Positions 1 through 12,707 of a stretch of 29,569 nucleotides of DNA are shown here, one piece after another. Position numbers and translations under genes: made by a program. Position 1 is the stretch's first letter. Each line of letters begins with the position of its first letter. Location: IMG/VR virus record IMGVR_UViG_3300038678_000075, positions 1 through 29,569 of that record. One strand, written 5' to 3'. The notes under the pieces were generated by a model. It saw only the letters and a program-made list of their open reading frames with translations, was not told the origin of the DNA and made no database searches. Origin of the DNA: a virus.

Positions 1-25
1 CATAAATAGAGCCTCTAATCAGTTA

Positions 26-187
26 TTACAAAGATCCATTTGCAATTTTATGAAACTTAATAAGACGTTCTTGTTGAGTTCCTATAAGTTTACAAATATA
101 TATTTTAATTAAACCATAACAAATTACCTTATATACAGAATGACCATTCATTAACCTATAACTGCCAACATTATAAATATAATACAT
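26..187 (-). CDS. Small hypothetical protein, 53 aa
   Basis: An ATG at 187-185 opens a 53-codon frame ending in TAA at 28-26. An AGAGGA ribosome-binding site lies about five bases before the ATG, which is why this short frame is believed. The protein starts MYYIYNVGSY and is rich in Tyr, Ile and Lys, with a basic C-terminal half (QQERLIKFHKIANG). I see no signal peptide, zinc motif or clear membrane helix. It lies downstream of the tRNA-like gene on the same strand and could share its transcript. The family is not recognised. It is probably one of the small accessory proteins typical of early phage regions. Confidence 0.55.
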   Translation of the reverse strand: MYYIYNVGSYRLMNGHSVYKVICYGLIKIYICKLIGTQQERLIKFHKIANGSL

Positions 188-215
188 ATCTTAATCCTCT
201 AGTTAATTAGTTAGT

Positions 216-350
216 TAATATTTAGGTGTGGACGACAGGAATCGAACCTGCATGAAAGCCTTATAATAGTTTTGGCCAACTCTTGTCTGCTATGTACTTT
301 CTAACCAGGGTTAGCGTATACCGTTCCGCCACGCCCACACCTAAATATTA
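216..350. repeat. 16-bp perfect inverted repeat enclosing the tRNA-like gene
   Basis: Bases 216-231 (TAATATTTAGGTGTGG) are the exact reverse complement of 335-350. The inner part of each arm overlaps the acceptor strands of the tRNA-like gene, so on the minus strand the acceptor helix continues outward without a break. Seven acceptor pairs (one G-U) are followed by 12 flanking pairs, giving about 19 bp. Ordinary tRNA genes do not have complementary 5' leader and 3' trailer of this length. Confidence 0.85.
227..338 (-). tRNA. tRNA-like gene (Leu/Ser-type body) without a normal anticodon arm
   Basis: Read on the minus strand, the acceptor strands GTGGGCG and CGTCCAC pair over 7 bp with one G-U, and A is the discriminator. 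TG at positions 8-9 is followed by a D arm GCG-GAACGGTATA-CGC containing the D-loop GG. A good T arm, GCAGG-TTCGATT-CCTGT, abuts the acceptor. These parts match bacterial tRNA-Leu. The middle does not: where the anticodon arm belongs there is CTAAC-CCTG-GTTAG, a 5-bp stem with a 4-base loop. About 45 further bases follow before the T arm, part of which can pair as GAAAG with CTTTC. The length is about 112 nt against 85-90 for tRNA-Leu. CCA is not encoded (CCT follows the discriminator). It may be a degenerate tRNA, one with a small insertion, or a tRNA mimic. No amino acid can be assigned. Confidence 0.6.
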
Positions 351-408
351 TAATTAATATTGTAAAGAACACTCCACTCACCACAGAATGTCCAATACAC
401 TAGTAACT
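351..408 (-). promoter_or_regulatory. Conserved intergenic element, copy 1
   Basis: This stretch shares two blocks with 1461-1516: TAATTAATAYTGTAAAGAACACT, and AATGYYCAATACACTASTAACT, separated by about 13 variable bases. On the minus strand copy 1 lies directly upstream of the tRNA-like gene and copy 2 directly upstream of the gene starting at 1438. That position suggests a promoter or processing signal. A sigma70-style pair with good spacing is not obvious, although TTTACA occurs in the conserved block. Confidence 0.5.
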
Positions 409-624
409 CATCTTATTCATGATGGTTCTAATTACCCTTTTTACTCATATGGGCTGGGTTCGCCACTTCAATATTTTTATCGGATTCATCGGTTTATTAT
501 AAAATTACATTAGTCAGGTCCAAATCATAGGGCGCATCCTCTTTCGTTGGCCGAAGTAAACATCTCACTACTAGGCCGGTTACGTTATCCGGCGTTCCTG
601 ATGGGACAAGAACCGTTAGCAGGG
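409..624 (-). other. Gene-poor stretch with abutting hairpins
   Basis: No convincing ATG frame of useful length lies here. On the minus strand GTTCTTG/CAGGAAC (594-613, 7 bp with one G-U, 6-base loop) directly abuts GCCGG/CCGGC (575-593, 9-base loop). A weaker AGTGA/TTACT hairpin follows at about 554-568. In the first and third stems the minus strand has G-U where the plus strand would have C-A, which fits a minus-strand RNA. An open frame without an ATG also crosses the region (about 497-622 minus, ending in DLDLTNVIL). It could be a gene remnant or use a rare start, so I do not call it as a gene. Confidence 0.35.
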
Positions 625-795
625 TTATTTAAAAAACCTATTTCGCTTTCCATTACAAGTATGGCGTGGAAATGTAGCATTAGTTGAATTTGGATCATTG
701 CGCCAAGCTGCACGTTCTAACCTATTTGAAATAGTTCGAGCAGTGGCTCCAGATTCACGATCGCGTTTGGTTTTACCTTCTCTAATTTTAGGCAT
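625..795 (-). CDS. Small basic hypothetical protein, 56 aa
   Basis: The ATG at 795-793 opens 56 codons ending in TAA at 627-625. A weak AGGGAAA ribosome-binding site lies upstream. The protein is strongly basic and hydrophilic: MPKIREGKTKRDRESG, then RTISNRLERAAWRNDP, then a C-terminal KRNRFFK. This composition suits a small nucleic-acid-binding protein, but there is no recognised fold and only one Cys. It is followed by the hairpin-bearing gap before the tRNA-like gene. Support is the open frame, plausible composition and tight packing against the gene starting at 1167. Confidence 0.5.
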   Translation of the reverse strand: MPKIREGKTKRDRESGATARTISNRLERAAWRNDPNSTNATFPRHTCNGKRNRFFK

Positions 796-816
796 AGTAA
801 ATATTTCCCTATTACA

Positions 817-1167
817 TTAATCATAAAGCCATAGTGAGACATAGGCATAAGGTTTGCCGTCTAAAAATGACCTTATAAGGTGATATGATTGATTAGTTAG
901 AGTTTCATAAATATAGCATTTTGCCCGTTCGTCATATATAAGAACAGTAGTGGTACAAAAGATATATAACATTATTCGATAAGAATTCACACAAGGTTTA
1001 TTAGACAATTTAACCTCTATATAATTACATGTATCAGGAATATCAAACCACCTTGACAACCCTTTATAACATAAAGCAGGTCGACAGTGGCCGATATTAC
1101 TAACTTCACGCCATATAGGACCGTCGATACCTTTATGCTTATTTAGTTTTATAACACTAACAGTCAT
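817..1167 (-). CDS. Hypothetical protein, 116 aa
   Basis: I chose the ATG at 1167 (MTVSVIKLNK) because AGGGG lies about nine bases upstream. The longer frame would need a TTG start that overlaps the previous gene. The protein alternates hydrophobic and polar residues (YRIMLYIFCTTTVLIYDE), which suggests a small beta-rich soluble domain. It contains three scattered Cys without a CxxC pair. It follows the 83-aa gene by about 20 bases and probably shares its transcript. No family is recognised. Confidence 0.6.
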   Translation of the reverse strand: MTVSVIKLNKHKGIDGPIWREVSNIGHCRPALCYKGLSRWFDIPDTCNYIEVKLSNKPCVNSYRIMLYIFCTTTVLIYDERAKCYIYETLTNQSYHLIRSFLDGKPYAYVSLWLYD

Positions 1168-1186
1168 AATATAAACCCCTAAGCGA

Positions 1187-1438
1187 TTAATCAACTATAT
1201 AAAAAACATACAATCGATCATAGTGTTTATCATGAAAACAAATGGCACTACCTTCACGATAATCTTCAATCCATGTCCAATATTTAAAATGGAATGTATG
1301 GAAATTGTCTTGCCAAGGTTTAGGAAGCACATAAATAAATTCTTCTTTAGGATCTATTTCCATAAATTCACTAGATAAAAATGAACATATTTCCGTTTGG
1401 AGTATTTTATGTAGCTTATCGAAGCCATTTGTTTTCAT
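1187..1438 (-). CDS. Hypothetical protein, 83 aa
   Basis: The ATG at 1438 opens a frame of 83 codons, preceded by AGAGGG about a dozen bases upstream. It begins MKTNGFDKLHKILQTE and has an aromatic-rich centre (HTFHFKYWTWIEDYREG) and end. Conserved element copy 2 (1461-1516) lies immediately upstream, so this is probably the first gene of a short transcript with the 116-aa gene. No signal peptide or motif of known function is seen. It is a small soluble phage protein of unknown role. Confidence 0.65.
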   Translation of the reverse strand: MKTNGFDKLHKILQTEICSFLSSEFMEIDPKEEFIYVLPKPWQDNFHTFHFKYWTWIEDYREGSAICFHDKHYDRLYVFYIVD

Positions 1439-1460
1439 ATATAATATTTAAACCCTCTAT

Positions 1461-1516
1461 TAATTAATACTGTAAAGAACACTTCGCCGTTGGAAATGCT
1501 CAATACACTACTAACT
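1461..1516 (-). promoter_or_regulatory. Conserved intergenic element, copy 2
   Basis: This is the second copy of the two-block element seen at 351-408, differing at only a few positions in the blocks. It fills the gap between the stop of the 72-aa gene (1523) and the start of the 83-aa gene (1438). Because the centre varies while the ends are kept, a paired-block promoter or a protein-binding site is more likely than coding sequence. Confidence 0.5.
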
Positions 1517-1522
1517 ACCAGG

Positions 1523-1741
1523 TTATTCAAATACTGTACGATTAAAACCACTTATCATACCTTTGTACTTTTGAATACCATCTTCTTCAATAAATACTTC
1601 GACATCCATAGCGGGACTCATACCTGCAAAGTTTGCGATATTTTCAATACTTGTAATAACATCTTCTTTGCTTAAACCGGCGGCGTTAGCGGGTAAAGGA
1701 AATTCTTTACCATCTTTCGTTTTAAGTATTTTAATACCCAT
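1523..1741 (-). CDS. Hypothetical protein, 72 aa
   Basis: The ATG at 1741-1739 overlaps the TAA of the preceding gene (TAATG), so translation is probably coupled. The protein (MGIKILKTKDGKEFPLPANA) is acidic and soluble, and looks like a small alpha/beta domain with a predicted helix SKEDVITSIENIANF. I recognise no family. Its coupling to the 169-aa gene suggests that the two products act together. Transcription runs on into conserved element copy 2 right after the stop. Confidence 0.7.
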   Translation of the reverse strand: MGIKILKTKDGKEFPLPANAAGLSKEDVITSIENIANFAGMSPAMDVEVFIEEDGIQKYKGMISGFNRTVFE

Positions 1742-2250
1742 TACACTGCCACCTGGTTTAATACAGGACAGGCTTTAAGGTAAACCAACATTTCATCGGC
1801 TTGTACCTTTGTACCATCCTTCAGCACCTTCTTGTCGTCCTCAGTGCTTTCGGCGTGTTCCAACTTACGAATCAAACTGTTAAGACTAATAACAGGATCA
1901 ATAACACTCACCTTTCCGGCATTGCTGTATTCATACCACGGGACAGTTGGCATAGCGAATTCGAAACCTTCACGGGCCTCACGCTTAAAACGTGCTTCAC
2001 CATCCTTCATTTTGGTCAATACCAGATCGGTATTTTCCTCGATGTACTCCTGAATCGCCTTGGTACGCATACCACGAAGATCAGCCACAATTAAATCTGA
2101 CAACCAATTGCTGTTCTGGTTGTCTGCGTACTCACGAAAACCGAATACAATTAAATCCTGTACTTGAGTACGCAAGCTACGATCAGCCTTTACTACGACT
2201 GAAAGCTGGGCCTTAAAATTCTCAGCCGTTATAACTGTACGTTTTGACAT
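1741..2250 (-). CDS. Hypothetical protein, 169 aa
   Basis: The ATG at 2250 is preceded by AGGTGA at good spacing. The protein starts MSKRTVITAENFKAQLS and is soluble and mostly helical, with charged stretches such as KMKDGEARFKREAREG and RKLEHAESTEDDKK. Near its C-terminus it shares the word-level pattern (long helix, then ADEMLVYLKACPVLNQV) of phage early proteins of unknown function. It is the first gene downstream of the large structured RNA region on the same strand. It could be read from the same transcript or from a promoter within about 2251-2290. Confidence 0.75.
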   Translation of the reverse strand: MSKRTVITAENFKAQLSVVVKADRSLRTQVQDLIVFGFREYADNQNSNWLSDLIVADLRGMRTKAIQEYIEENTDLVLTKMKDGEARFKREAREGFEFAMPTVPWYEYSNAGKVSVIDPVISLNSLIRKLEHAESTEDDKKVLKDGTKVQADEMLVYLKACPVLNQVAV

Positions 2251-2283
2251 AATGTTTCACCTAATTTATATAGTTGCGAGGTA

Positions 2284-2908
2284 GATATACAGGTAAAAAG
2301 GAACTGGTGAGATTCGATACTCACGTTCCGGTGAATTACTAGTTCACGTTCCGGTCTTAATTATTAGATGACAGTTCCAAACTGTATATCCTTAAGTATA
2401 CTGGATTTCTCAATATACTTAAGACTACCTAGCGTAGCAATCTGAAATCACCCTTAGCTATGTAGTCTCGCACATGAATATTAGTTACTGTTGAGTAAGC
2501 TGTATTTTTTTCATACACAACTAACCCTAATGTGTTGGCCCGTAGGCTACTTACGTTTGGATTAGCTTCACTAATATTTTATTCAGGCTTGTAAAGCCTT
2601 CGTATTATCTTCATCGGATATAGACAATGTAAGCCTGTTACCCTACAGTCATATTAAACTATAGCTATCCTGCTATAAGACCTGACTGGCTAAGCCCTTC
2701 ACATACTGGCTTTTGCTTCATTAGATAGAGCCTAACCATCTAACTGAGTGGATTGTTACAGATATTAAGAATCTGCCATACGCGTCACCACATTGCGCCT
2801 GCCCTTTAGGGCAACTATGTGTATTTGACAAACCCATTTGGAATGCGGCCTATTCCGCATTCCCTGTCTCGGGGTTTGTACTCCATAACATTTTGGGGCC
2901 TAAGTTAT
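2284..2908 (-). ncRNA. Candidate large structured RNA, about 600 nt, multi-hairpin
   Basis: No gene is supported on either strand across more than 700 bases, yet helices follow each other almost without gaps. In plus coordinates: 2284-2292/2382-2390; 2300-2306/2372-2378; 2391-2400/2414-2423; 2423-2428/2462-2467 with 2430-2433/2457-2460; 2477-2485/2570-2578; 2501-2505/2513-2517; 2585-2590/2594-2599; 2646-2651/2683-2688 with 2660-2665/2672-2677; 2692-2696/2708-2712; 2721-2726/2738-2743; 2759-2763/2771-2775; 2789-2793/2817-2821 with 2800-2804/2809-2813; 2828-2835/2872-2879 enclosing the 9-bp 2840-2848/2855-2863; and 2885-2889/2904-2908. Two helices are longer on the minus strand because G-U replaces C-A (TTG/CAG extending the 2391-2423 stem; CTAATCC/GGGTTAG within 2520-2567). 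All flanking genes are minus. Size and phage setting recall GOLLD and ROOL RNAs. It is not identified. Confidence 0.6.
2300..2378 (-). ncRNA. tRNA-like cloverleaf at the 3' end of the structured RNA
   Basis: On the minus strand GGAACTG pairs with CAGTTCC as a 7-bp acceptor. GTGAA-CTAGTAA-TTCAC forms a 5-bp stem with a 7-base anticodon-shaped loop (C32, U33, AGU, A37, A38; AGU would read Thr codons). A 6-base variable region follows. GTGAG-TATCGAAT-CTCAC is a 5-bp arm that directly abuts the acceptor, as a T arm must. The D side is poor: 24 bases with only a short GTC/GAC or TCT/AGA helix and no GG in the loop. The T-like loop has 8 bases and lacks TTC at its start. The acceptor is followed by TTTTT, not CCA. 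A further 9-bp helix (2284-2292/2382-2390) encloses it. It is probably a tRNA mimic or a decayed tRNA rather than a working one. Confidence 0.5.
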
Positions 2909-2955
2909 TGATTTATAAAAGGATTGTGGGACTAGGAGGGGATCTTAGATGAGAA

Positions 2956-2983
2956 TTATTATCATTTAGAATATTGCAGACAA
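2956..2983 (-). promoter_or_regulatory. Weak promoter candidate upstream of the structured RNA
   Basis: On the minus strand TTGTCT (2983-2978) is followed after 16 bases by TAATAA (2961-2956); an overlapping GATAAT (2963-2958) has only 14 bases. It lies just past the terminator of the zinc-ribbon gene and before the first helix of the RNA region. The match is modest and position is the main support. Confidence 0.25.
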
Positions 2984-3008
2984 AGAAAAGGCCCATAAAT
3001 ATGGGCCT
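2984..3008 (-). terminator. Rho-independent terminator after the zinc-ribbon gene
   Basis: On the minus strand AGGCCCAT-ATTT-ATGGGCCT is an 8-bp GC-rich hairpin followed by TTTTCTTTG. It lies 15 bases past the stop of the 61-aa gene. It would separate that gene from the structured RNA downstream, which would then need its own promoter. Confidence 0.75.
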
Positions 3009-3022
3009 AAATGTTGTGGTTT

Positions 3023-3208
3023 CTAGTACGTACAGTTTGAATAGTGTTTACAATAGTGTTCACTACTATTGGGACACTCTAATATATGGCCATCAGGCCC
3101 TAAATCTCTACACTTGAGATCGTGTCCACAAACAAAACATATATTATATTCTATACACTCTTTTTCAAATTTCTTCTGTTCTAAAATCTCTTTCACTTTA
3201 TTATTCAT
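3023..3208 (-). CDS. Small zinc-ribbon-like protein, 61 aa
   Basis: The ATG at 3208 follows AGAGAGA with good spacing. After a charged N-terminal helix (KEILEQKKFEKECIE) the protein has CFVC at residues 24-27, CRDLGPDGHILEC and two further Cys near the end (HYCKHYSNC). The paired Cys and His residues suggest one or two zinc sites in a treble-clef or ribbon-like fold. A role in nucleic-acid or protein binding is inferred, not shown. The gene stands alone between two near-identical hairpins (2989-3008 and 3239-3267), so it looks like a self-contained transcription unit or cassette. Confidence 0.65.
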   Translation of the reverse strand: MNNKVKEILEQKKFEKECIEYNICFVCGHDLKCRDLGPDGHILECPNSSEHYCKHYSNCTY

Positions 3209-3238
3209 AATATTCTCTCTATCAATATGTTTTAAATT

Positions 3239-3267
3239 AGGCCCATACCTTTAACAGATATGGGCCT
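3239..3267 (-). terminator. Hairpin terminator candidate after the 164-aa gene
   Basis: On the minus strand AGGCCCATA and TATGGGCCT form a 9-bp stem with an 11-base loop, about 20 bases past the stop at 3288. It is followed by AATTTAAAAC, a weak T-tract. The stem repeats the sequence of the terminator at 2989-3008. Confidence 0.5.
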
Positions 3268-3287
3268 GAGAGGGCCTGTATTGCGCT

Positions 3288-3782
3288 CTAGGCGACGCTA
3301 GCTTGAAAGAGGACCGCTAGCCTTAGCAACATTCTATCACGCTCAGAGTGGCATACAGAGCGTTTAAAGCGCTTCTTGCCCGGTTGATAGAATATCCAGC
3401 CAGCACCATATTCATTGCATGGAATATGTGATTCGATAAAATGTGCATCGTCTAAACCATTCGCTTCGATATCGGCATAAACTACCCATAGCTCGTTGAT
3501 AATTAGACCCTGAAGGTCTGGGTTATCTAGTGCATAGGGTGATAGCTTCTGAACCTTCTCGATTAGCGCTAGTACTTGGCTAATACGGGACATATTACCG
3601 AATCTCTTAGCCTTGTCAGCACCAAGTGCTTTGGTTAGCTTGTCGCCTACCTTACGCTTATCACGGCTGGTCATGGGTACATTGCTATTAATCTTGTCCA
3701 TGTACTTGGTCACCAATTGCATCGTATCAGGAACATCAGACACAACACATAACACAGTGAAGTTGATGATTTGCGTGTTCAT
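3288..3782 (-). CDS. Hypothetical protein, 164 aa
   Basis: The ATG at 3782 overlaps the TGA of the upstream gene as ATGA, the usual coupled arrangement. An ATG three codons earlier lacks a ribosome-binding site. The protein starts MNTQIINFTVLCVVSDVPD and has a basic patch (MTSRDKRKVGDKLTKALGADKAKRFG). A mixed helical domain follows, then a Cys- and Arg-rich end (KKRFKRSVCHSERDRMLLRLAVLF). No known domain is recognised. The basic segments would suit a nucleic-acid-binding early protein, but this is inference. It ends just before the hairpin at 3239-3267. Confidence 0.7.
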   Translation of the reverse strand: MNTQIINFTVLCVVSDVPDTMQLVTKYMDKINSNVPMTSRDKRKVGDKLTKALGADKAKRFGNMSRISQVLALIEKVQKLSPYALDNPDLQGLIINELWVVYADIEANGLDDAHFIESHIPCNEYGAGWIFYQPGKKRFKRSVCHSERDRMLLRLAVLFQASVA

Positions 3783-4081
3783 AACTTGCATACTAAATTT
3801 TGAATACGATTTAAAAAATATGCACTGTCATAGTCGTTACACGCCTTCACATAACAACTAGCGTACACCTTCAATGCTTCAAGAGTATGTTGCTTATCGT
3901 TGGATGGTTGTGATTCGGCAACCGCACTATCTGACTTTATACGATAGTCGTACTTAACCCAATTCCATCCAAGTAGACAACCACTGTCCCATACTTGACC
4001 ACAAACAGACTGTACTTCCACCTTTCCGCCATTATCATAATGCTGCATTACAGCAATTTTCTCTTTCAATGTCTTACTCAT
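3779..4081 (-). CDS. Phage early protein with WxxxxYxYRI motif, 100 aa
   Basis: The ATG at 4081 has AGGTG about seven bases upstream; an in-frame ATG three codons earlier does not. The N-terminal half reads as a small beta domain: a helix KEKIAVMQHYDNG, then KVEVQSVCGQVW, and WNWVKYDYRIKSDSA at about residues 40-54. This W-x-Y-x-Y-R-I pattern recurs in short phage proteins of unknown function that usually sit in early regions. The C-terminal half is helical (EALKVYASCYVKACNDYDSAYF). It is coupled to the 164-aa gene by an ATGA overlap. Confidence 0.65.
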   Translation of the reverse strand: MSKTLKEKIAVMQHYDNGGKVEVQSVCGQVWDSGCLLGWNWVKYDYRIKSDSAVAESQPSNDKQHTLEALKVYASCYVKACNDYDSAYFLNRIQNLVCKL

Positions 4082-4122
4082 AATATTCACCTGTTGTTAA
4101 TTGGCAGCTTCATTGCTACCGC

Positions 4123-4148
4123 CTAGCACCCTGGTGACAAGGTGCTAG
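4123..4148 (-). other. 8-bp GC-rich hairpin between genes
   Basis: CTAGCACC (4123-4130) pairs with GGTGCTAG (4141-4148) around a 10-base loop. It sits between the stop of the 55-aa membrane-protein gene (4162) and the start at 4081. There is no T-tract on either side, so it may be an mRNA-stabilising or processing hairpin rather than a terminator. Confidence 0.5.
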
Positions 4149-4161
4149 ACGCTGGCTTAGT

Positions 4162-4329
4162 CTAAAATATTAACCACAAAATAAACTCTGCTACACTGGC
4201 CATTATTAGACCTGCGAGCAATAATATTAGTGGGCTTGTTCTAGTGTATTTAAAAACAATATGATGATGTAAATCCAGGACATACATATAAACAATACAG
4301 ACTAGATATAAGGTGATGTGGAGTTCCAT
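4162..4329 (-). CDS. Small membrane protein, 55 aa
   Basis: The ATG at 4329 starts three bases after the TGA of the preceding gene (TGAGTCATG), so it is probably coupled to it. The protein has two hydrophobic stretches: LYLVCIVYMYVLDL at about residues 7-20 and PLILLLAGLIMASVAEFILW at about 33-52. A short polar HHHIVFKYTRTS link separates them. This gives a two-helix hairpin in the inner membrane. Phages use such proteins in host takeover, exclusion or lysis control; which applies here cannot be told. Confidence 0.6.
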   Translation of the reverse strand: MELHITLYLVCIVYMYVLDLHHHIVFKYTRTSPLILLLAGLIMASVAEFILWLIF

Positions 4330-4332
4330 GAC

Positions 4333-4665
4333 TCAGTGGCCTAGCTGCAAGTTAGAGCAACGATACTTGACTTGCATATCATCCAGGTTGACGCATACAG
4401 GACAACCTATATCAGAATCAATTCGTATTAAGGACTTCTGATGTGTCCTGTGAATACTCCTCATAGTGATGTTAGTGATAGGTAATACGTTCCAGGCTTG
4501 AAGGCTCTTAAGCCCTTCCTCGACTCCCAATATATCCATACAGATACGTATGGTTCGGTTAGTGATGGTTGACCCAGTCATGGGGTATTCCATCATGGTT
4601 TGATGATAGTGCTCATCATTGGATGCCTTTAACTTAATAGGCATGGTATGGTTATTGCTAGGCAT
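4333..4665 (-). CDS. Hypothetical protein with C-terminal Cys motif, 110 aa
   Basis: I chose the ATG at 4665 (MPSNNHTMPIKLKASND) because GAGG stands about nine bases upstream. The protein is rich in Met, Thr and Ile, with GCPVCVNLDDMQVKYRCSN near the end. That gives a CxxC pair and a lone Cys, possibly a partial metal site. Its upstream leader carries the AACCACAA motif shared with two neighbours. No family is recognised. The stop is three bases from the start of the membrane-protein gene, so the two form one unit. Confidence 0.6.
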   Translation of the reverse strand: MPSNNHTMPIKLKASNDEHYHQTMMEYPMTGSTITNRTIRICMDILGVEEGLKSLQAWNVLPITNITMRSIHRTHQKSLIRIDSDIGCPVCVNLDDMQVKYRCSNLQLGH

Positions 4666-4678
4666 AGTATTGGTCCTC

Positions 4679-4699
4679 ACGTGGTTGTGGTTGATCTCA
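4679..4699 (-). promoter_or_regulatory. AACCACAA leader motif, copy 3
   Basis: On the minus strand TGAGATCAACCACAACCACG precedes the ribosome-binding site of the gene starting at 4665. It shares the AACCACAA core with 5242-5272 and 5516-5543 but lacks their TATACT part. Its 15-base plus-strand form TTGTGGTTGATCTCA (4685-4699) recurs exactly at 5007-5021, inside the Ala-rich gene. Confidence 0.4.
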
Positions 4700-4703
4700 T
4701 CAG

Positions 4704-4739
4704 TGGAGCATACAGCTCCAGACGCCAGTGCTGGGGCGT
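4704..4739 (-). other. Two tandem hairpins downstream of the Ala-rich gene
   Basis: TGGAGC/GCTCCA (4704-4709/4715-4720, 5-base loop) and ACGCC/GGCGT (4722-4726/4735-4739) stand side by side just after the stop at 4750. They are GC-rich but have no T-tract. They could slow transcription or protect the 3' end of the message. Confidence 0.4.
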
Positions 4740-4749
4740 TTCGATCTAG

Positions 4750-5229
4750 TTACTTGTCTTTTAGGATAGTTGCTTCCGTCAACCTTGCTGCCGCTACCCT
4801 TTCCTCTGCCACTCTCCAGGTTTTATATACTGTCCTTGCTGCCTTTGCTTTTTCTTCTGCTAACTCTGCTGCCTTTACTGCTGCCTTTACTGCATCCCAT
4901 GCTGCTGTCTCTGCTGTCTCTGCTGCTGTCTCTGCCCTTGCAGCCCTTGCATTTGCTACCCTTGCTGCCTTTGCTGCTGCTTTTGCTGCTGCTTTTGCTG
5001 CTGCTTTTGTGGTTGATCTCAGTTGTGATTGGTGTTCGTAAGTAGCATCGAATTCTTTACCAGCTATAGTGTCTATAATATCTATTGCGATCTTATAATC
5101 AGCGAACATGCCCACTTTAAATGCAGCTTGAGCTAATCCGATTAGTTGACTAGTCCAACGTTTAATATATTGCTTACGTGTAACAACATTAGGCTTACTA
5201 TATCCCTGTTTTGTAGTGATAGTTTTCAT
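4750..5229 (-). CDS. Ala-rich helical repeat protein, 159 aa
   Basis: The ATG at 5229 (MKTITTKQGYSKPNV) has AGGTA upstream; the longer open frame reaches back into the leader. Residues 1-65 form an ordinary soluble domain (KQYIKRWTSQLIGLAQAAFKV). From about residue 70 the protein is dominated by Ala with Lys, Arg and Glu in a 3-4 residue rhythm: KAAAKAAAKAAAKAARVANA, then ETAAETAETAAWDA. It ends in an amphipathic helix ending in ATILKDK. This predicts a long single helix or coiled coil. Related Ala-rich tails occur in many phage proteins of unknown role. Exact 12-base DNA repeats encode the KAAA units, so length may vary between relatives. Confidence 0.7.
   Translation of the reverse strand: MKTITTKQGYSKPNVVTRKQYIKRWTSQLIGLAQAAFKVGMFADYKIAIDIIDTIAGKEFDATYEHQSQLRSTTKAAAKAAAKAAAKAARVANARAARAETAAETAETAAWDAVKAAVKAAELAEEKAKAARTVYKTWRVAEERVAAARLTEATILKDK
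4973..5008. repeat. Three exact 12-bp tandem repeats
   Basis: GCTGCTGCTTTT occurs three times in a row at 4973-4984, 4985-4996 and 4997-5008. On the minus strand it encodes Lys-Ala-Ala-Ala in the Ala-rich protein. The period is a multiple of three, so slippage would add or remove whole units without a frameshift. Confidence 0.9.
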
Positions 5230-5241
5230 AATAATAGTACC

Positions 5242-5272
5242 TGCATAGTTGTGGTTGAGTAATGAGTATAGT
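5242..5272 (-). promoter_or_regulatory. TATACT/AACCACAA leader, copy 2
   Basis: On the minus strand ACTATACT is followed by CATTACTC, AACCACAAC and TATGCA, just before the ribosome-binding site of the Ala-rich gene. It matches copy 1 (5516-5543) over ACTATACT, AACCACAA and TATGCA. TATACT would serve as a -10 box, with transcription beginning near AACCACAA. No convincing -35 box is seen. Confidence 0.5.
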
Positions 5273-5293
5273 TGATTCGCTGGCTTGACGCTA

Positions 5294-5503
5294 TCAATCA
5301 ATGTGATAACTGTAGCCACCGTTGGCCAGCTTAAAAGCATCATTCGGCAAATCACCAGTTAAAAGGTACTCATCTAAAGCCTTTGGGTTGATGATTCGTA
5401 GTGCGTCTACGATATGACCATGTGCGACTACATGTGTCCATTGGTCTTCGACATTATTGCAACGTGATAAAGCTGCGAGTAGTAAAGCTGTAGTTTTATT
5501 CAT
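5294..5503 (-). CDS. Hypothetical protein, 69 aa
   Basis: The ATG at 5503 (MNKTTALLLAALSRCNNVED) has GGAGAAG four bases before it, a strong site. The longer frame would begin inside the leader. Despite the hydrophobic TALLLAALS near the start, the stretch is too short for a membrane helix, and the rest is polar and helical (QWTHVVAHGHIVDALRIINPKALDEYLL). No family is recognised. It is the first gene of the leftward region, directly after the operator-like dyad, so it may be expressed early. Confidence 0.65.
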   Translation of the reverse strand: MNKTTALLLAALSRCNNVEDQWTHVVAHGHIVDALRIINPKALDEYLLTGDLPNDAFKLANGGYSYHID

Positions 5504-5515
5504 TGTTCTTCTCCG

Positions 5516-5543
5516 TGCATAATTGTGGTTGTACAAGTATAGT
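5516..5543 (-). promoter_or_regulatory. TATACT/AACCACAA leader, copy 1
   Basis: On the minus strand ACTATACTTGTAC is followed by AACCACAAT and TATGCA, leading into the ribosome-binding site of the 69-aa gene. It is the outermost copy of the leader and abuts the dyad at 5540-5556. The shared TATACT is a reasonable -10 box for leftward transcription. Confidence 0.5.
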
Positions 5544-5556
5544 CAATATATGACTA
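5540..5556. promoter_or_regulatory. Operator-like dyad
   Basis: TAGTCA-ATATA-TGACTA is a perfect 6-bp dyad with a 5-base centre. It overlaps the upstream edge of the leftward promoter candidate, the position of a typical repressor or activator site. No regulator gene is recognised in the window. Confidence 0.4.
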
Positions 5557-5955
5557 ATATCTACTTATTTCTCTAAATCTGTCCCATTCACTGGTCCAGG
5601 TTAGAACAATATTAGTATAAGGTTCTATAATTAGTAGTTAACATTAATAATATATAGATTGATTAATAGTAGTTATATACAAATATAGTCTTTAATAATA
5701 AATATAATCTTTAATGGTTACACCCCTCCTTTCTTATTATCTTATATTCTTATTATCACCCTATTAGAAGCTCCACCATCACGCCTGTCGACATTGAGCG
5801 GCCCTTGTAGGCTGATGTTTGTTGTGTTGTCACTGTGTGGTGATGTGTTGTGTCACTGATGGGTGACAAAGGCAGGGGGAGGGGGCTGAGCCAGGCGGAA
5901 ATAAACCGGTATACCCCCATCCGTACATGAGAGGTGAAATTCTAAGGAGAACTAG
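5557..5955. promoter_or_regulatory. Divergent intergenic region with short direct repeats
   Basis: The leftward early genes and rightward virion genes diverge here. The first half is AT-rich. It holds a 15-base direct repeat with one mismatch (5682-5696 and 5701-5715, consensus AATATARTCTTTAAT, period 19) and an 11-base exact repeat TTCTTATTATC (5731-5741 and 5747-5757, period 16). The second half is GC-rich, with TGTCAC/GTGACA arms (about 5840-5860) and a purine run at 5872-5885. No convincing gene is seen. Promoters for both directions probably lie here, but no clean -35/-10 pair stands out. Confidence 0.45.
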
Positions 5956-7745: not shown

Positions 7746-9029
7746 ATGGCCAACCTAGACTTTAACCTTCACAACAAACAGATGGAGGTGTTCCAATCTC
7801 CAGCTCGCTTTAAAGTGGTGGCAGCAGGGCGGAGGGCTGGTAAATCTTATCTGTCTGCTGTCACCTTGCTTATTGAAGCATTGAAGGAAGAGAATAGGTT
7901 TGGTATTTCGTTAAAAGGAAAAGAAGTGTGGTATGTGGCTCCTACGTACCAGCAAGCTAGGGATATACTCTGGGGCTTATTGAAGGACTTAGGAGAGGAT
8001 GTAATAGAGAAGGCCCACGAGAATACTAGTACGTTGAAATTAATTAATGGACGTACCATTAAGCTCAAAGGTTCTGATCGTCCAGATACACTACGAGGTG
8101 TATCATTAGCATTTGTTGTTCTAGACGAGTATGCATTTATGAAGCCAGAAGTATGGGATATGATTGTTGGTCCAGCTTTGGCGGATAGCAGGGGTGAAGC
8201 CTTGTTTATAGGAACACCTAGTGGTAAGAACCACTTCTATGATTTATGGTTGGAAGCTAGTGGTGACTTCGATAATGAGTGGAGTGCATTTCATTTTAAT
8301 AGTCTAGACAATCCTATCATCTCTGAAGAAGAGTTGGAAAGGGCTAGGCGTAGAATGAGTGAGGATGCTTTCAGGCAGGAGTTTGAAGCCAGTTTTGAAG
8401 CAGCCGGTGGTGGTGCTTTCAAGAGTGAAGACTTCCAATACGCAGAGAAACCAGAGGAACGGGGTACAGTTTATATATCTGTTGATCCTGCTGGTTACGG
8501 CACAGGTGAGGGAATGGTTAAGTCAGCTTTAAAGAAGCTAGATGAAACAGCAATCACTGTTGTTGATGTGTCTCCCTCGGGTTGGTTTGTGTTGGACGTA
8601 CTACATGGCCGCTGGGGTATTAGAGAAACATCTTTAAGAATTATTAGAGCTGCACAGCAATATCAACCAGCAGCCCTCGGTATTGAGAAGGGTGCATTGA
8701 AGAATGCAATCATGCCTTATCTCGAAGATCAGATGAGAAGGTTGAATGTCTATCCACGGATAGAAGAATTAACACATGGCGGACAGAAGAAAACAGATAG
8801 AATCTTCTGGGCGCTGCAAGGCCGATTCCAGAATAAAAGGATTACGTTTAAGAAGAATCAGGTTTGGAATAAACACCTTACCGACCAACTCTTAGACTTT
8901 CCCAACCCAATGGCACATGATGATTTGGTGGACGCCCTTGCTTATATCGATCAAATAAGTACAACAATATACGATAATGGATGGGTTGAAGAAGAGTATC
9001 AACCTATTGACTTAATAGCAGGGTTTTAG
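7746..9029 (+). CDS. terL: Terminase large subunit, 427 aa
   Basis: This is the packaging motor ATPase-nuclease that translocates DNA through the portal and cuts it. The Walker A motif is AAGRRAGKS at residues 26-34, and Walker B is LAFVVLDEY at 121-129 with the catalytic Glu. A coupling motif FIGTPSG follows at 154-160. The RNase H-like nuclease domain shows YISVDPAGYG (Asp247), LGIEKGA (Glu314) and HDDLVDALAY (Asp392-393). The length is in the usual 420-500 range. AAGG stands just before the ATG. The gene is followed without a gap by the methyltransferase-like gene and then the portal. Confidence 0.95.
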   Translation: MANLDFNLHNKQMEVFQSPARFKVVAAGRRAGKSYLSAVTLLIEALKEENRFGISLKGKEVWYVAPTYQQARDILWGLLKDLGEDVIEKAHENTSTLKLINGRTIKLKGSDRPDTLRGVSLAFVVLDEYAFMKPEVWDMIVGPALADSRGEALFIGTPSGKNHFYDLWLEASGDFDNEWSAFHFNSLDNPIISEEELERARRRMSEDAFRQEFEASFEAAGGGAFKSEDFQYAEKPEERGTVYISVDPAGYGTGEGMVKSALKKLDETAITVVDVSPSGWFVLDVLHGRWGIRETSLRIIRAAQQYQPAALGIEKGALKNAIMPYLEDQMRRLNVYPRIEELTHGGQKKTDRIFWALQGRFQNKRITFKKNQVWNKHLTDQLLDFPNPMAHDDLVDALAYIDQISTTIYDNGWVEEEYQPIDLIAGF

Positions 9030-9626
9030 ATGAAGGTATTAGTAGCGTGTGAATATTCAGGACGAGTAAGAGATGCTTTTATAAAAATGGGCCATGATGC
9101 TATAAGTTGTGATCTATTACCAACGGAATCTCCAGGACCACACTATCAAGGAGATGTATTTAATATAATTAATGATGATTGGGATATGATGGTCGCTCAT
9201 CCACCATGTACTTATCTATCATCTAGCGGCATGCATTGGACAGTTCGAGGGTTGAGAGATCCACAGTTGACAGAAGATGCAGTAGGTTTTTTTCTTAGGT
9301 TATGGTACACACCAATTCCAATGATAGCTATAGAGAATCCTATTGGAATAATGTCTAAAAAATTAAGAAAACCTGACCAGTATATACAACCTTATGAATA
9401 CGGTGAAAATGCCAGTAAAAAGACTTGTTTATGGCTATCAGGTCTTAAGGAATTAAAACCGACAAACCACATCGAACCAAGGATAGTTCAGGGTAAAAGT
9501 CGATGGGAAAATCAGACAGATAGTGGCCAAAATATATTATCGCCATCAAAAAAAAGAGCTAGTATGAGAAGTTTGACGTATCAAGGTTGGGCTGATGCTA
9601 TGGCAGAGCAATGGGGTTGTAAATAA
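9030..9626 (+). CDS. C5-cytosine-methyltransferase-like protein, 198 aa
   Basis: Three hallmarks of C5-cytosine methyltransferases occur in order. ACEYSGRVRDAF at residues 6-17 stands in for the AdoMet-binding motif I. HPPC at 57-60 carries the catalytic-position Cys60, and ENPIG at 102-106 corresponds to the ENV motif. GHDAISCDLLP and QGDVF fit motifs II and III. The protein is much shorter than bacterial enzymes and has little room for a target-recognition domain. This matches the short phage family usually annotated as DNA cytosine methyltransferase. Activity and substrate are uncertain. It is inserted between large terminase and portal, starting right after the terL stop and ending in a TAATG overlap, and looks like an acquired extra gene. 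Confidence 0.75.
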   Translation: MKVLVACEYSGRVRDAFIKMGHDAISCDLLPTESPGPHYQGDVFNIINDDWDMMVAHPPCTYLSSSGMHWTVRGLRDPQLTEDAVGFFLRLWYTPIPMIAIENPIGIMSKKLRKPDQYIQPYEYGENASKKTCLWLSGLKELKPTNHIEPRIVQGKSRWENQTDSGQNILSPSKKRASMRSLTYQGWADAMAEQWGCK

Positions 9627-11755
9627 TGGCGCATGTAGACATAATTGTTGGAAATACGGAAGTTCCCGAAGGCAAGGTGGGCCGTGATGTTGAGTCTTCT
9701 TTGGTTTCATGGGTTATGACCCGTGTAAAAGATTGGGAAGACTACCGAAATACAAATTTTAGGGAAAAGTGGAACGAGTATTACCGCCTATGGCGTGGTA
9801 TTTGGGACCAAAAGGACAAAAGTAGAGATTCAGAGCGCAGTAGGCTCATAAGTCCTGCACTTTCGCAGGCGATTGAGGCCACTGTCAGTGAATTAGAGGA
9901 AGCATCCTTCGGACAGGGTAAGTGGTTCGACGTATCGGACGATGTTGTAGACCAGGATAAGACAGATATTGGTATGTTCCGAGATCAACTGGCCGAAGAC
10001 CTAGAAAAGGCTAATGTTCCGGCTAATATAGCAGAAATTTATCTAAATGGTGCTATATACGGGACAGGTATTGGGAAGATTGTTGTTGAGGAGATTGTTG
10101 AGAAAGTAATCGGATCAAATCCTATCAATGACACAGAAATTACTAATTTTGATGTGACAGATAGGCCTACAGTTGCTGTAGAAGTAGTAGCTGTCCATCC
10201 TCAAGAGTTTGTTATTGATCCAGCAGCTAGAAAGGTCCATGAAGGTTTGGGCTGCGCACATATAACTACTGTAAGTAAACAGGCTGTTCAAAAGAAACAG
10301 CAATCAGGTATCTATAGGGATGTTCCTCTGTCAGGATTTACTGATACTTTAGTAGGAGACAGAAGTCTTAGTGATAAAAATGAACTAGCTGATATTCGTA
10401 CTCAAGATAAGACTATGTTAGTAGAATATCACGGATTAGTTCCTAGAAACTTAATCCCTCTTGATATAGAGGACGGAGAGGAGTTTGTAGAGTTATTCCC
10501 CGACAAGGAAGGCGCCAGTGCTGATATAGATGAAGTTGATCTTGTTGAAGCCATTGTAACAATTGCCAATGGTATTACTCTCTTAAGAGGTATTGAAACA
10601 CCTCATGCTATGAAGGACAGATCTTTTATAGCCTATCAGCATGATACAGTTCCTAATAGGTTCTGGGGTAGAGGCATAGCCGAGAAGGGTTATAATCCTC
10701 AAAAGGCATTAGATGCAGAGATGCGAGGTCGTATCGATGCAATGGCGATATCTATCCACCCAATGATGGGCATAGATGCCACACGTATACCAAGGGGTGG
10801 TAATTTTAAAGTAGCTCCTGGACGTAATATATTTACTAACGGTGATCCGAGTACAATATTAAAACCCTTTACATTCGGACAGGTAAACAATAACACGTTT
10901 GCCCAGTCTGGCGAACTTGAGCGCATGGTCCAAATGGGCACAGGCGCAATGGATAGTGCCACACCATTGGCCGAGAACAGACGTAATGAAACGTCCTCGG
11001 GTATGTCAATGATTATGGGTGGTGCAATTAAGAGGAGTAAGCGCACTCTTGCTAATATAGAGCGTAACTTCATGAGGCCTTTGATACATAAGGCAGCATG
11101 GAGGTATATGCAGTTTGCTCCTGATCGTTATCCTACACTTGATGTGAAGTTTAATGTGCATAGTACTCTTGGAATGGTTGCTAGAGAATTAGAGCAGCAG
11201 CAATTAGCGAATATGATGAACACTGTACCTGCTGATTCTCCTGCCTTTTGGATGCTCTTGAAGGCTATATATGAGCATTCTAGTATTTCTAACAGAGAAG
11301 AAATGCTGGTAGTTATTGATCAGATGATGCAGGCTTCACTTCAGAAGCAACAGCAGCCTGAAGAGCAAGATCCAATAATTGCTATTAAAATGCAAGAGAT
11401 TCAACTTAAGTCTGAATTGGATAAGGCTAAGCTACAATTAGAACAACAAGAGAATAATCAAGAAGCACAACTAGATGTAGCTAAATTGCAACTAGAGTAC
11501 GAGAAGCTCCGTCTTAAAGAGCGTGAGTTGATTATGGACGCTAAGATTGAGTTAGCCAAGATGGAGCAGGACAGTGCTGTTACTGTTGCCCAGATGCAGC
11601 AGAAGAGCGTAAGCGACACTGTAGCAGCTCAGAAGCAGGTTCCTGCTAAGCCAGAGAAGCCTGCTGTGATCAATATTAACCAAGGTAGTGGTAAGAAGAC
11701 CATCTCCGTTACGCGTACTGATAAGGGCTTAGAAGGCTCTATAGAGGAGGTCTAA
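9626..11755 (+). CDS. Portal protein, 709 aa
   Basis: Its position after large terminase, its size, and an N-terminal region of Trp/Tyr/Arg-rich helices (DWEDYRNTNFREKWNEYY) fit the podovirus portal, the 12-subunit ring at the packaging vertex. The middle contains a core-like segment (DRSFIAYQHDTVPNRFWGRG) and helices RGRIDAMAISIHPMMGID. The last 150 residues form a Gln/Lys/Glu-rich coiled coil (KSELDKAKLQLEQQENN) like the helical barrel or crown of long portals such as P22's. A basic, unstructured C-terminus follows. The start overlaps the methyltransferase stop as TAATG. Confidence 0.85.
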   Translation: MAHVDIIVGNTEVPEGKVGRDVESSLVSWVMTRVKDWEDYRNTNFREKWNEYYRLWRGIWDQKDKSRDSERSRLISPALSQAIEATVSELEEASFGQGKWFDVSDDVVDQDKTDIGMFRDQLAEDLEKANVPANIAEIYLNGAIYGTGIGKIVVEEIVEKVIGSNPINDTEITNFDVTDRPTVAVEVVAVHPQEFVIDPAARKVHEGLGCAHITTVSKQAVQKKQQSGIYRDVPLSGFTDTLVGDRSLSDKNELADIRTQDKTMLVEYHGLVPRNLIPLDIEDGEEFVELFPDKEGASADIDEVDLVEAIVTIANGITLLRGIETPHAMKDRSFIAYQHDTVPNRFWGRGIAEKGYNPQKALDAEMRGRIDAMAISIHPMMGIDATRIPRGGNFKVAPGRNIFTNGDPSTILKPFTFGQVNNNTFAQSGELERMVQMGTGAMDSATPLAENRRNETSSGMSMIMGGAIKRSKRTLANIERNFMRPLIHKAAWRYMQFAPDRYPTLDVKFNVHSTLGMVARELEQQQLANMMNTVPADSPAFWMLLKAIYEHSSISNREEMLVVIDQMMQASLQKQQQPEEQDPIIAIKMQEIQLKSELDKAKLQLEQQENNQEAQLDVAKLQLEYEKLRLKERELIMDAKIELAKMEQDSAVTVAQMQQKSVSDTVAAQKQVPAKPEKPAVININQGSGKKTISVTRTDKGLEGSIEEV

Positions 11756-11967
11756 TGGATAGTCATTCAGGAGCCTCCTATCTTACAGCAATTATAGCAT
11801 TCTTTACAGGATTAACTATAGACGAGTGGAGTGCGGTAGTGGGTATTATTGTAGCCATTCTTGGTGCTATTTTAGGTATTGGTACATTTTTAATTAACTG
11901 GTACTACAGACATAAAGATCATAAACGTAAAGAAGAGTTGGTGAGTAAAGAATCATGCCTGTTGTAA
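11755..11967 (+). CDS. Holin-like membrane protein, 70 aa
   Basis: GAGG precedes an ATG overlapping the portal stop (TAATG). The protein has a short hydrophobic stretch near the start (YLTAIIAFFTGL), then TIDEWSAVVGIIVAILGAIL running into a second membrane span. It ends with a strongly basic tail NWYYRHKDHKRKEE. A D-E-W segment, membrane helix and cationic tail match small phage holins (HP1 or P22-lambdoid types), which open the inner membrane at lysis. No endolysin is recognised nearby, so the call rests on topology alone. Confidence 0.6.
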   Translation: MDSHSGASYLTAIIAFFTGLTIDEWSAVVGIIVAILGAILGIGTFLINWYYRHKDHKRKEELVSKESCLL

Positions 11968-12707
11968 TTGAAGAAACAGTACAAGTACAAGATCATAATG
12001 ACTCTATTACTGTAGTTAATACATCTACTGGTTTAACAGACGGGTTTCTACTATGGATAGGTTTAGGCTCTGATGGCGTAGATAGCGCTGCATCTTCTAC
12101 AGTATCTATCAATGGTACGCCTGATGAAATTGTTGGAACACCGGTCGCAGCAGGGGCCTCATCACCCTTTTTTGTATCTCTCTATAGTGGATGGGACGAT
12201 GGGGATACTTGGCCTACGACAGGAACCTTATTACATACAATCAACACTGGGTATGGGAACGAAGGTGGTGCATTATTTGAATTATCTGATGTTGATCAAA
12301 CTGTACCCATTGGATTTGGTTCTACTCTTGATACTCAGGTATTAAAAAGCGGTACCATCATGCCTACGCATAGTGGTGTAACAGGATCAGATGGTGATCT
12401 AGTATTGATTGTATGTTGTGCTGATTCAGGACTTACTCTTACAAAACCTGATGCCATTAATGGTGTAGCTTGGTTAGAGCATTATAATGAAACTAACGAG
12501 ACACTTGTTGGGGGCTCTGTCCAGAGGGGCGCTGTTTGGAGTTGTTTATTAGATCAAGATTTAACAAGCACTAATATTGTAGCTGGAACTGTTGGTGGTG
12601 GTACTTCTAGTAATGTTGCTTCGACATTGTTAGTAATTCAATCTGAATCCGGTGGCGTACCCAATGGTGGTACAATACTTCCTCAAATGATGCAAAATTT
12701 ACACTAA
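11955..12707 (+). CDS. Putative virion protein, 250 aa
   Basis: The ATG at 11955 overlaps the holin-like gene by 13 bases. The protein is acidic, rich in Gly, Thr and Ser and almost free of Lys. It alternates strand-like segments (SITVVNTSTGLTDGFLLWIG) with turns, as expected for a beta-sandwich on the particle surface. VLIVCCADSGL is its most hydrophobic part. No family is recognised. Position between portal and scaffold, and composition, support a structural or host-contact role by inference. Confidence 0.6.
   Translation: MPVVIEETVQVQDHNDSITVVNTSTGLTDGFLLWIGLGSDGVDSAASSTVSINGTPDEIVGTPVAAGASSPFFVSLYSGWDDGDTWPTTGTLLHTINTGYGNEGGALFELSDVDQTVPIGFGSTLDTQVLKSGTIMPTHSGVTGSDGDLVLIVCCADSGLTLTKPDAINGVAWLEHYNETNETLVGGSVQRGAVWSCLLDQDLTSTNIVAGTVGGGTSSNVASTLLVIQSESGGVPNGGTILPQMMQNLH

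Follow-up and report, generated by a model that had tools for sequence, protein, structure and literature searches.

Few large structured RNAs are known from phages, and the function of each is still unsettled; among them, GOLLD and ROOL retain conserved cores. Long untranslated leaders can also contain a boxA, which is found in the rRNA leader, in nut-type and put-type phage antitermination and in other long untranslated RNAs. GOLLD and ROOL are Rfam families for which cryo-EM is available (PMC12286853). Vibrio phage ICP1 encodes a noncoding RNA of ~800 nt, which is its most abundant transcript (PMC7567579). The window analyzed here is the whole of an IMG/VR virus contig of 29,569 bases from a marine podovirus-like phage, with terminase, portal and internal-virion-type protein genes in its right part and small genes in its left part. 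It contains, at 2284-2945 on the minus strand, a candidate structured untranslated RNA that can be compared with these systems.

A preliminary description of positions 2284-2908 had proposed a member of the GOLLD/ROOL type or a new class of such RNA. The stretch resembles GOLLD and ROOL in being large, ornate, phage-encoded, of comparable length and without settled function, and a large structured phage RNA is plausible here. Membership of GOLLD, ROOL, HEARO or OLE, however, was not borne out: cmscan, run on the whole window at the gathering threshold and on 1-5600 with the cut-off relaxed to E<=5, left all four unmatched, and the leader was matched by no Rfam family even at E<=5. The leaders of related phages described below likewise gave no match to these four families. 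Identity with GOLLD or ROOL was rejected on this ground. The tRNA neighborhood known for such RNAs is also missing, with no tRNA island near the stretch and no standard tRNA detected by ARAGORN in the whole window. A tRNA-like gene (Ile, TAT) at 225-338 on the minus strand, 2 kb from the stretch, is accepted by ARAGORN only with a 40-nt intron and went undetected in the Rfam and standard ARAGORN searches. The leaders differ further from GOLLD and ROOL in always preceding one early gene and in sharing no sequence core between genera. Compared without sequence, the ICP1 RNA is similar in being a long ORF-less stretch of similar size in a phage of a marine-type host; it adjoins the lysis cluster and was demonstrated by RNA-seq (PMC7567579), whereas the present stretch precedes an early gene and is predicted from sequence. 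In the literature available for searching, nothing was found on noncoding RNA of Zobellviridae.

The absence of genes from 2284-2908 was confirmed, in that the longest ORF inside has 38 aa and no ORF of at least 60 aa overlaps 2255-3020. The three helices named earlier, all read on the minus strand, are exact in the sequence and present in the minimum free energy structure: a nested stem at 2828-2879 (9-bp GGAATGCGG/CCGCATTCC within 8-bp ACAAACCC/GGGTTTGT), a hairpin with a 10-bp stem at 2391-2423 (CTTAAGTATA/TATACTTAAG) and a long-range 9-bp stem between AATATTAGT (2477-2485) and ACTAATATT (2570-2578). Folding of the 3' end revealed in addition a domain at 2284-2390 on the same strand, closed by a perfect 9-bp stem of GATATACAG (2390-2382) and CTGTATATC (2292-2284). 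Within this domain, two copies of a 12-nt direct repeat, TCACGTTCCGGT as written on the plus strand, lie in neighboring hairpins (2321-2332 and 2344-2355). The minus strand of 2284-2908 was calculated to fold at -183.4 kcal/mol, below all 160 dinucleotide shuffles (mean -152.1, sd 6.35; z -4.9), as the proposal of a structured RNA had predicted, and separate folding-tool runs gave concordant results. The strand preference is small, with the plus strand reaching nearly the same value (z -4.1, 160 dinucleotide shuffles). Helices of at least 9 bp number 17, vs 7.0 in 60 shuffles (maximum 14); those of at least 7 bp (59 vs 50.9) are not unusual. Among 18 tiles of 625 nt from the window, the largely coding tile 3201-3825 on the minus strand gave z -6.1 and tile 11401-12025 on the plus strand gave z -4.9, and because these two score similarly, fold energy alone is weak evidence for an RNA.

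The signals flanking the stretch are arranged on the minus strand in the order terminator, sigma70-like promoter, Fur-box-like palindrome, IHF site, folded stretch, terminator-like hairpin and gene 1741-2250. The terminator noted earlier directly upstream is indeed present at 3008-2989, where it ends the upstream genes. The promoter (TTGTCT-17-AATAAT, 2983-2955) has 9/12 consensus matches and is weak evidence, because promoter-like matches are hardly commoner in the region than in shuffles. Its putative -10 is covered by the palindrome TGATAATAATTCTCA (2950-2964), which has one mismatch to TGATAATNATTATCA; a Fur-box-like palindrome upstream of the leader was also observed in the related contig L149 (~1701). 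The IHF-consensus site AATCAATAACTTA (WATCAANNNNTTR) lies at the leader start (2901-2913, minus), as it does in L085 and L117. At the other end, the terminator-like hairpin GGAACGTGAG...CTCACCAGTTCC followed by TTTTT (2329-2295, minus; fold -12.3 kcal/mol) stands 45 nt ahead of gene 1741-2250. An own minus-strand transcription unit, suggested before, is thus predicted from the terminator before it, the promoter and the terminator-like hairpin after it, and the candidate RNA would extend from a 5' end at about 2945 to a 3' end at about 2295-2284.

The gene that follows, 1741-2250 on the minus strand (PHROG 14737/1448), encodes a protein whose homologues include gp27 of Vibrio phage ICP2 and the gene 1 product of Pseudoalteromonas phage RIO-1, both phages being Zobellviridae. 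Profile matches also indicated a distant relationship to LUZ24 gp2, annotated as a conserved early protein. The predicted fold (pLDDT 74) consists of helices followed by a beta hairpin and resembles predicted proteins from many podoviruses; a fold search of the PDB gave no significant match.

An ORF-less region of ~0.4-0.9 kb was found directly upstream of gp27, on the same strand, in every gp27-bearing phage examined, as it is in the window. The set comprised RIO-1, HP1, KZY1, PQ867850, Vibrio phages 275E43-1, 1.293.O, 1.208.B and 172P1, IMG/VR contig L149, 11 ICP2-like phages (ICP2 and 10 close relatives) and G001 (loci L117, L118, L119, L120, L121, L122, L123, L124, L149, L150 and G001); in the ICP2 group, one 80-codon ORF (gp26) separates leader from gp27. 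These relatives were obtained via terminase, a pattern search and tblastn in phages, since a search by flanking proteins in viral contigs and genomes yielded almost none. In the nearest relative, G001 (IMGVR_UViG_3300038492_000068; terminase 76% identical), homologues of the two flanking genes are arranged as in the window, and ~0.6 kb separates the promoter region from the gene. The order in G001 is an o3288 homologue, a T-run hairpin (about 1110-1140), a sigma54-like site, an IHF site, the leader and gp27. Such leaders of Zobellviridae and LUZ24-like phages, annotated merely as a gap or promoter region, thus share their position with the window's stretch by virtue of a homologous gene, and are similar in length.

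Most of these leaders also show excess folding of the sense strand. Single-sequence z scores (sense/antisense) were -5.9/-0.8 for G001, -4.1/-0.65 for RIO-1, -4.2/-2.5 for L117, -3.0/-0.5 for 172P1, -2.3/-0.9 for 1.208 and -2.3/-1.8 for ICP2; little excess was seen for 275E43 (-0.4), 1.293 (-1.1) and LUZ24 (-0.9). When RNAalifold energies were compared with those of column-shuffled alignments, consensus-fold z was -9.3 for four Vibrio phages, -7.4 for RIO-1/HP1/KZY1 and -5.0 for the ICP2 group, with weaker antisense values (-5.9, -4.0 and -2.1), and the identical test on adjacent gp27 coding alignments gave +0.6, -0.9 and -0.5. Doubly changed, compensatory pairs numbered 22 vs 11.6, 33 vs 14.0 and 7 vs 3.8 in shuffles for the three lineages, counted on structures that were themselves derived from the alignments being tested; the excess over column shuffles in the consensus-fold test is modest except in ICP2. 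As a control, a stretch of ICP2 genes of mixed content, aligned from three sequences with 97% identity, gave -3.5/-2.9, so that z values around -3 are not to be trusted where sequences are so alike. In the Vibrio leaders the last helix (A6 helix 24) encloses the gp27 ribosome site and has three doubly changed pairs. Conserved RNA structure in the leaders of three related lineages is well supported.

Related phages provided structured positional counterparts, none of them with sequence alignable to the window's leader. Comparison with the relatives' leaders gave no sequence match, a DNA similarity search of phage records with the stretch found none, and two covariance models built from relatives, R1 and R2, had no match in the window's leader. 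The sole find of R1 (the Vibrio 3' domain) was a weak match at the corresponding place in RIO-1 (12.5 bits). Between genera, the IHF and promoter sites are the only sequence that the leaders have in common. The sequence AATCAATAACTTA, common to the window, G001 and L117, was considered as a conserved RNA start and rejected, as it fits the IHF consensus; most of the 31 pattern-search matches to it are plausibly due to chance.

Several sites for host regulators were observed upstream of the relatives' leaders. Sigma54-like sites (TGGCAC-N5-TTGC) occur in L117 (~1445), L085 (~1244), L119 (~34), L118 (~1805) and L149 (~1544-1770), and CRP sites (TGTGATGTAGCTCACA) in L118 (~1967), L119 (197), L122 (470/518/734) and L120 (~1279). 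Sigma54-like, CRP and IHF sites are concentrated immediately ahead of the leaders at more than background frequency, and these early phage promoters may be under the control of global regulators of the host. In G001, the IHF site is immediately preceded by two DnaA-box-like TGTGGATAA repeats (L085 1314-1335), which may mark a replication origin next to its leader. BoxA-like sequences occur in some leaders, TGCTCTTTAATAATT soon after the -10 in 1.208/172P1 and GTTCTTTAA[CT]AATT in ICP2. As in known boxA leaders, the long untranslated RNA of the Vibrio and ICP2 relatives has such a site close behind its promoter. The phage leaders here are far longer than nut/put sites, however, and boxA (TGCTCTTTAACAATT) near the RNA 5' end is absent from the leaders of the window and G001.

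Taken together, 2284-2908 has about an even chance of being part of a minus-strand structured untranslated RNA of ~650 nt that heads the gp27-like early operon and most likely acts in cis. It is probably a rapidly diverging structured leader or noncoding RNA of that operon, and from position, size and folding it is a candidate for the same class as the gp27 leaders of Zobellviridae, of which it would be the positional counterpart. We infer that transcription starts near 2950, past the terminator of the upstream genes, and that polymerase would cross the folded RNA and reach the hairpin at 2329-2295 about 45 nt ahead of the gp27-like gene. The folded leader, the terminal hairpin and hairpins near the ribosome site would then set the entry of RNA polymerase and ribosomes into the gp27-like gene and onward; no hairpin sequestering the ribosome site is seen in the window's own leader. 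Attenuation is possible because the leaders of the window and of ICP2, the latter with GGGCTAG..CTAGCCTTTATT near its end, finish with terminator-like hairpins. Judging from the boxA-like sites in the Vibrio and ICP2 leaders, polymerase may be carried across the untranslated stretch by Nus-factor antitermination, and in 1.208/172P1 and ICP2 these sites would shield the leader from Rho. A role in cis is favored because the leader is constantly linked to one early gene. If this is true, a long structured leader kept before one conserved early gene would make the role of long untranslated phage RNAs testable, RIO-1 and HP1 being cultivable phages that carry such a leader, and early phage expression would be tied to host nutrient regulators.

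The same RNA might instead be a free-standing, trans-acting large noncoding RNA that ends at 2329-2295 and works in the manner of the ICP1 RNA or of GOLLD and ROOL, independently of the gp27-like gene. We regard this as a serious if somewhat doubtful possibility. The terminator-like end with its T run, the similar end of the ICP2 leader and the near-invariance of the 3' 600 nt of the leader among ICP2-like phages are all consistent with it, as is a size resembling that of ICP1's most abundant transcript (PMC7567579). Against it, the leader invariably sits immediately ahead of one and the same gene, and most leaders are without a clear terminator ahead of gp27; moreover, the leaders cannot be aligned between genera, unlike the conserved cores of GOLLD and ROOL. 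A broader proposal, tentative and on balance unlikely, takes these leaders as a hitherto undescribed class of large structured phage RNA that Zobellviridae-like podoviruses make first from their early operon, with the host global regulators sigma54/IHF, CRP and Fur as switches and the widespread, conserved early protein of the gp27/LUZ24 gp2 family as a possible binding partner.

Two further readings dispense with a functional RNA. The region could be a DNA-level regulatory or replication region, in which IHF, sigma54, CRP and Fur sites and DnaA boxes operate and the inverted repeats act as DNA; the clustered sites upstream of the leaders, the DnaA-box-like repeats of G001 and the nearly equal folding of both strands in the window agree with this. 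Folding and consensus energy in the relatives nevertheless favor the sense strand, the regulatory sites fall outside the structured part and the promoter-region alignment gave z of only -1.8, which makes this explanation quite improbable. That the stretch is an AT-rich remnant devoid of genes, whose few palindromes arose by chance and which has no relation to the relatives' leaders, would accord with the lack of similarity to any phage record or among leaders of different genera, with the equally good folding of other window tiles and with the ordinary number of helices of at least 7 bp. It is highly improbable, given that the stretch precedes the same gene as the relatives' leaders, that about 660 nt stay ORF-free in a compact phage, that helices of at least 9 bp are in excess and that in the nearest relative, G001, folding at this position reaches z -5.9 on the sense strand only.

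Gene-free structured stretches were also seen in terminase relatives with no detectable gp27 homologue, preceding minus-strand early genes in G003 (L126 456-1453, minus; z -4.6) and G012 (L139 10192-10886, minus; z -5.8). In G007, a gene-free run of tandem perfect hairpins (L145, about 8100-8400; z -7.8 and -7.5 for 7924-9159) is strong on both strands and is therefore probably a DNA-level feature or multiple terminators.

One element recurs in several Zobellviridae. The hairpin ahead of gp27 in RIO-1, HP1, KZY1 and L117, absent from the window, has a 7-bp outer stem, an 8-9-bp inner stem and an invariant AGUC/UAUCR internal loop. In five sequences, including a JPW copy, 12/16 pairs are changed on both sides and pairing is 100%. 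Copies lie at L121 1065-1111, L124 2087-2132, L150 2425-2470, L117 2404-2458, L152 5309-5355, and NC_015158.1 32020-32066 and 32811-32855; the leader copies had no Rfam match at E<=1. In whole-genome searches, R2, the model of this hairpin, revealed further copies in ICP2, one where gp38 starts (E 1.3e-11) and one in the gp38-gp39 interval (E 1.5e-4); gp38-region copies were present in 4/4 ICP2-like phages searched, and a weak match precedes a 172P1 gene (E 0.01). No R2 match was found at E<=1 in the window (G000) or in G001. The Vibrio leaders lack the element as well, so that it need not be a defining feature of the leader class. Its appearance is that of a regulatory or processing element between cistrons of Zobellviridae.

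Two other noncoding elements were observed in the window. A permuted type II hammerhead ribozyme is predicted between two early genes (4685-4746, minus), with an intact core (CUGAUGA, GAAA, GUC) and all three stems; it scored 23.9 bits against Rfam RF02276 (E 0.16), which falls short of that family's gathering score (37), and was the sole match of a strict hammerhead pattern scan in 1.6 Mb of loci. Between the left-end genes, a noncoding motif, TGTAAAGAACACT...CAATACACTA.TAACT, is repeated at 361-408 and 1470-1517.
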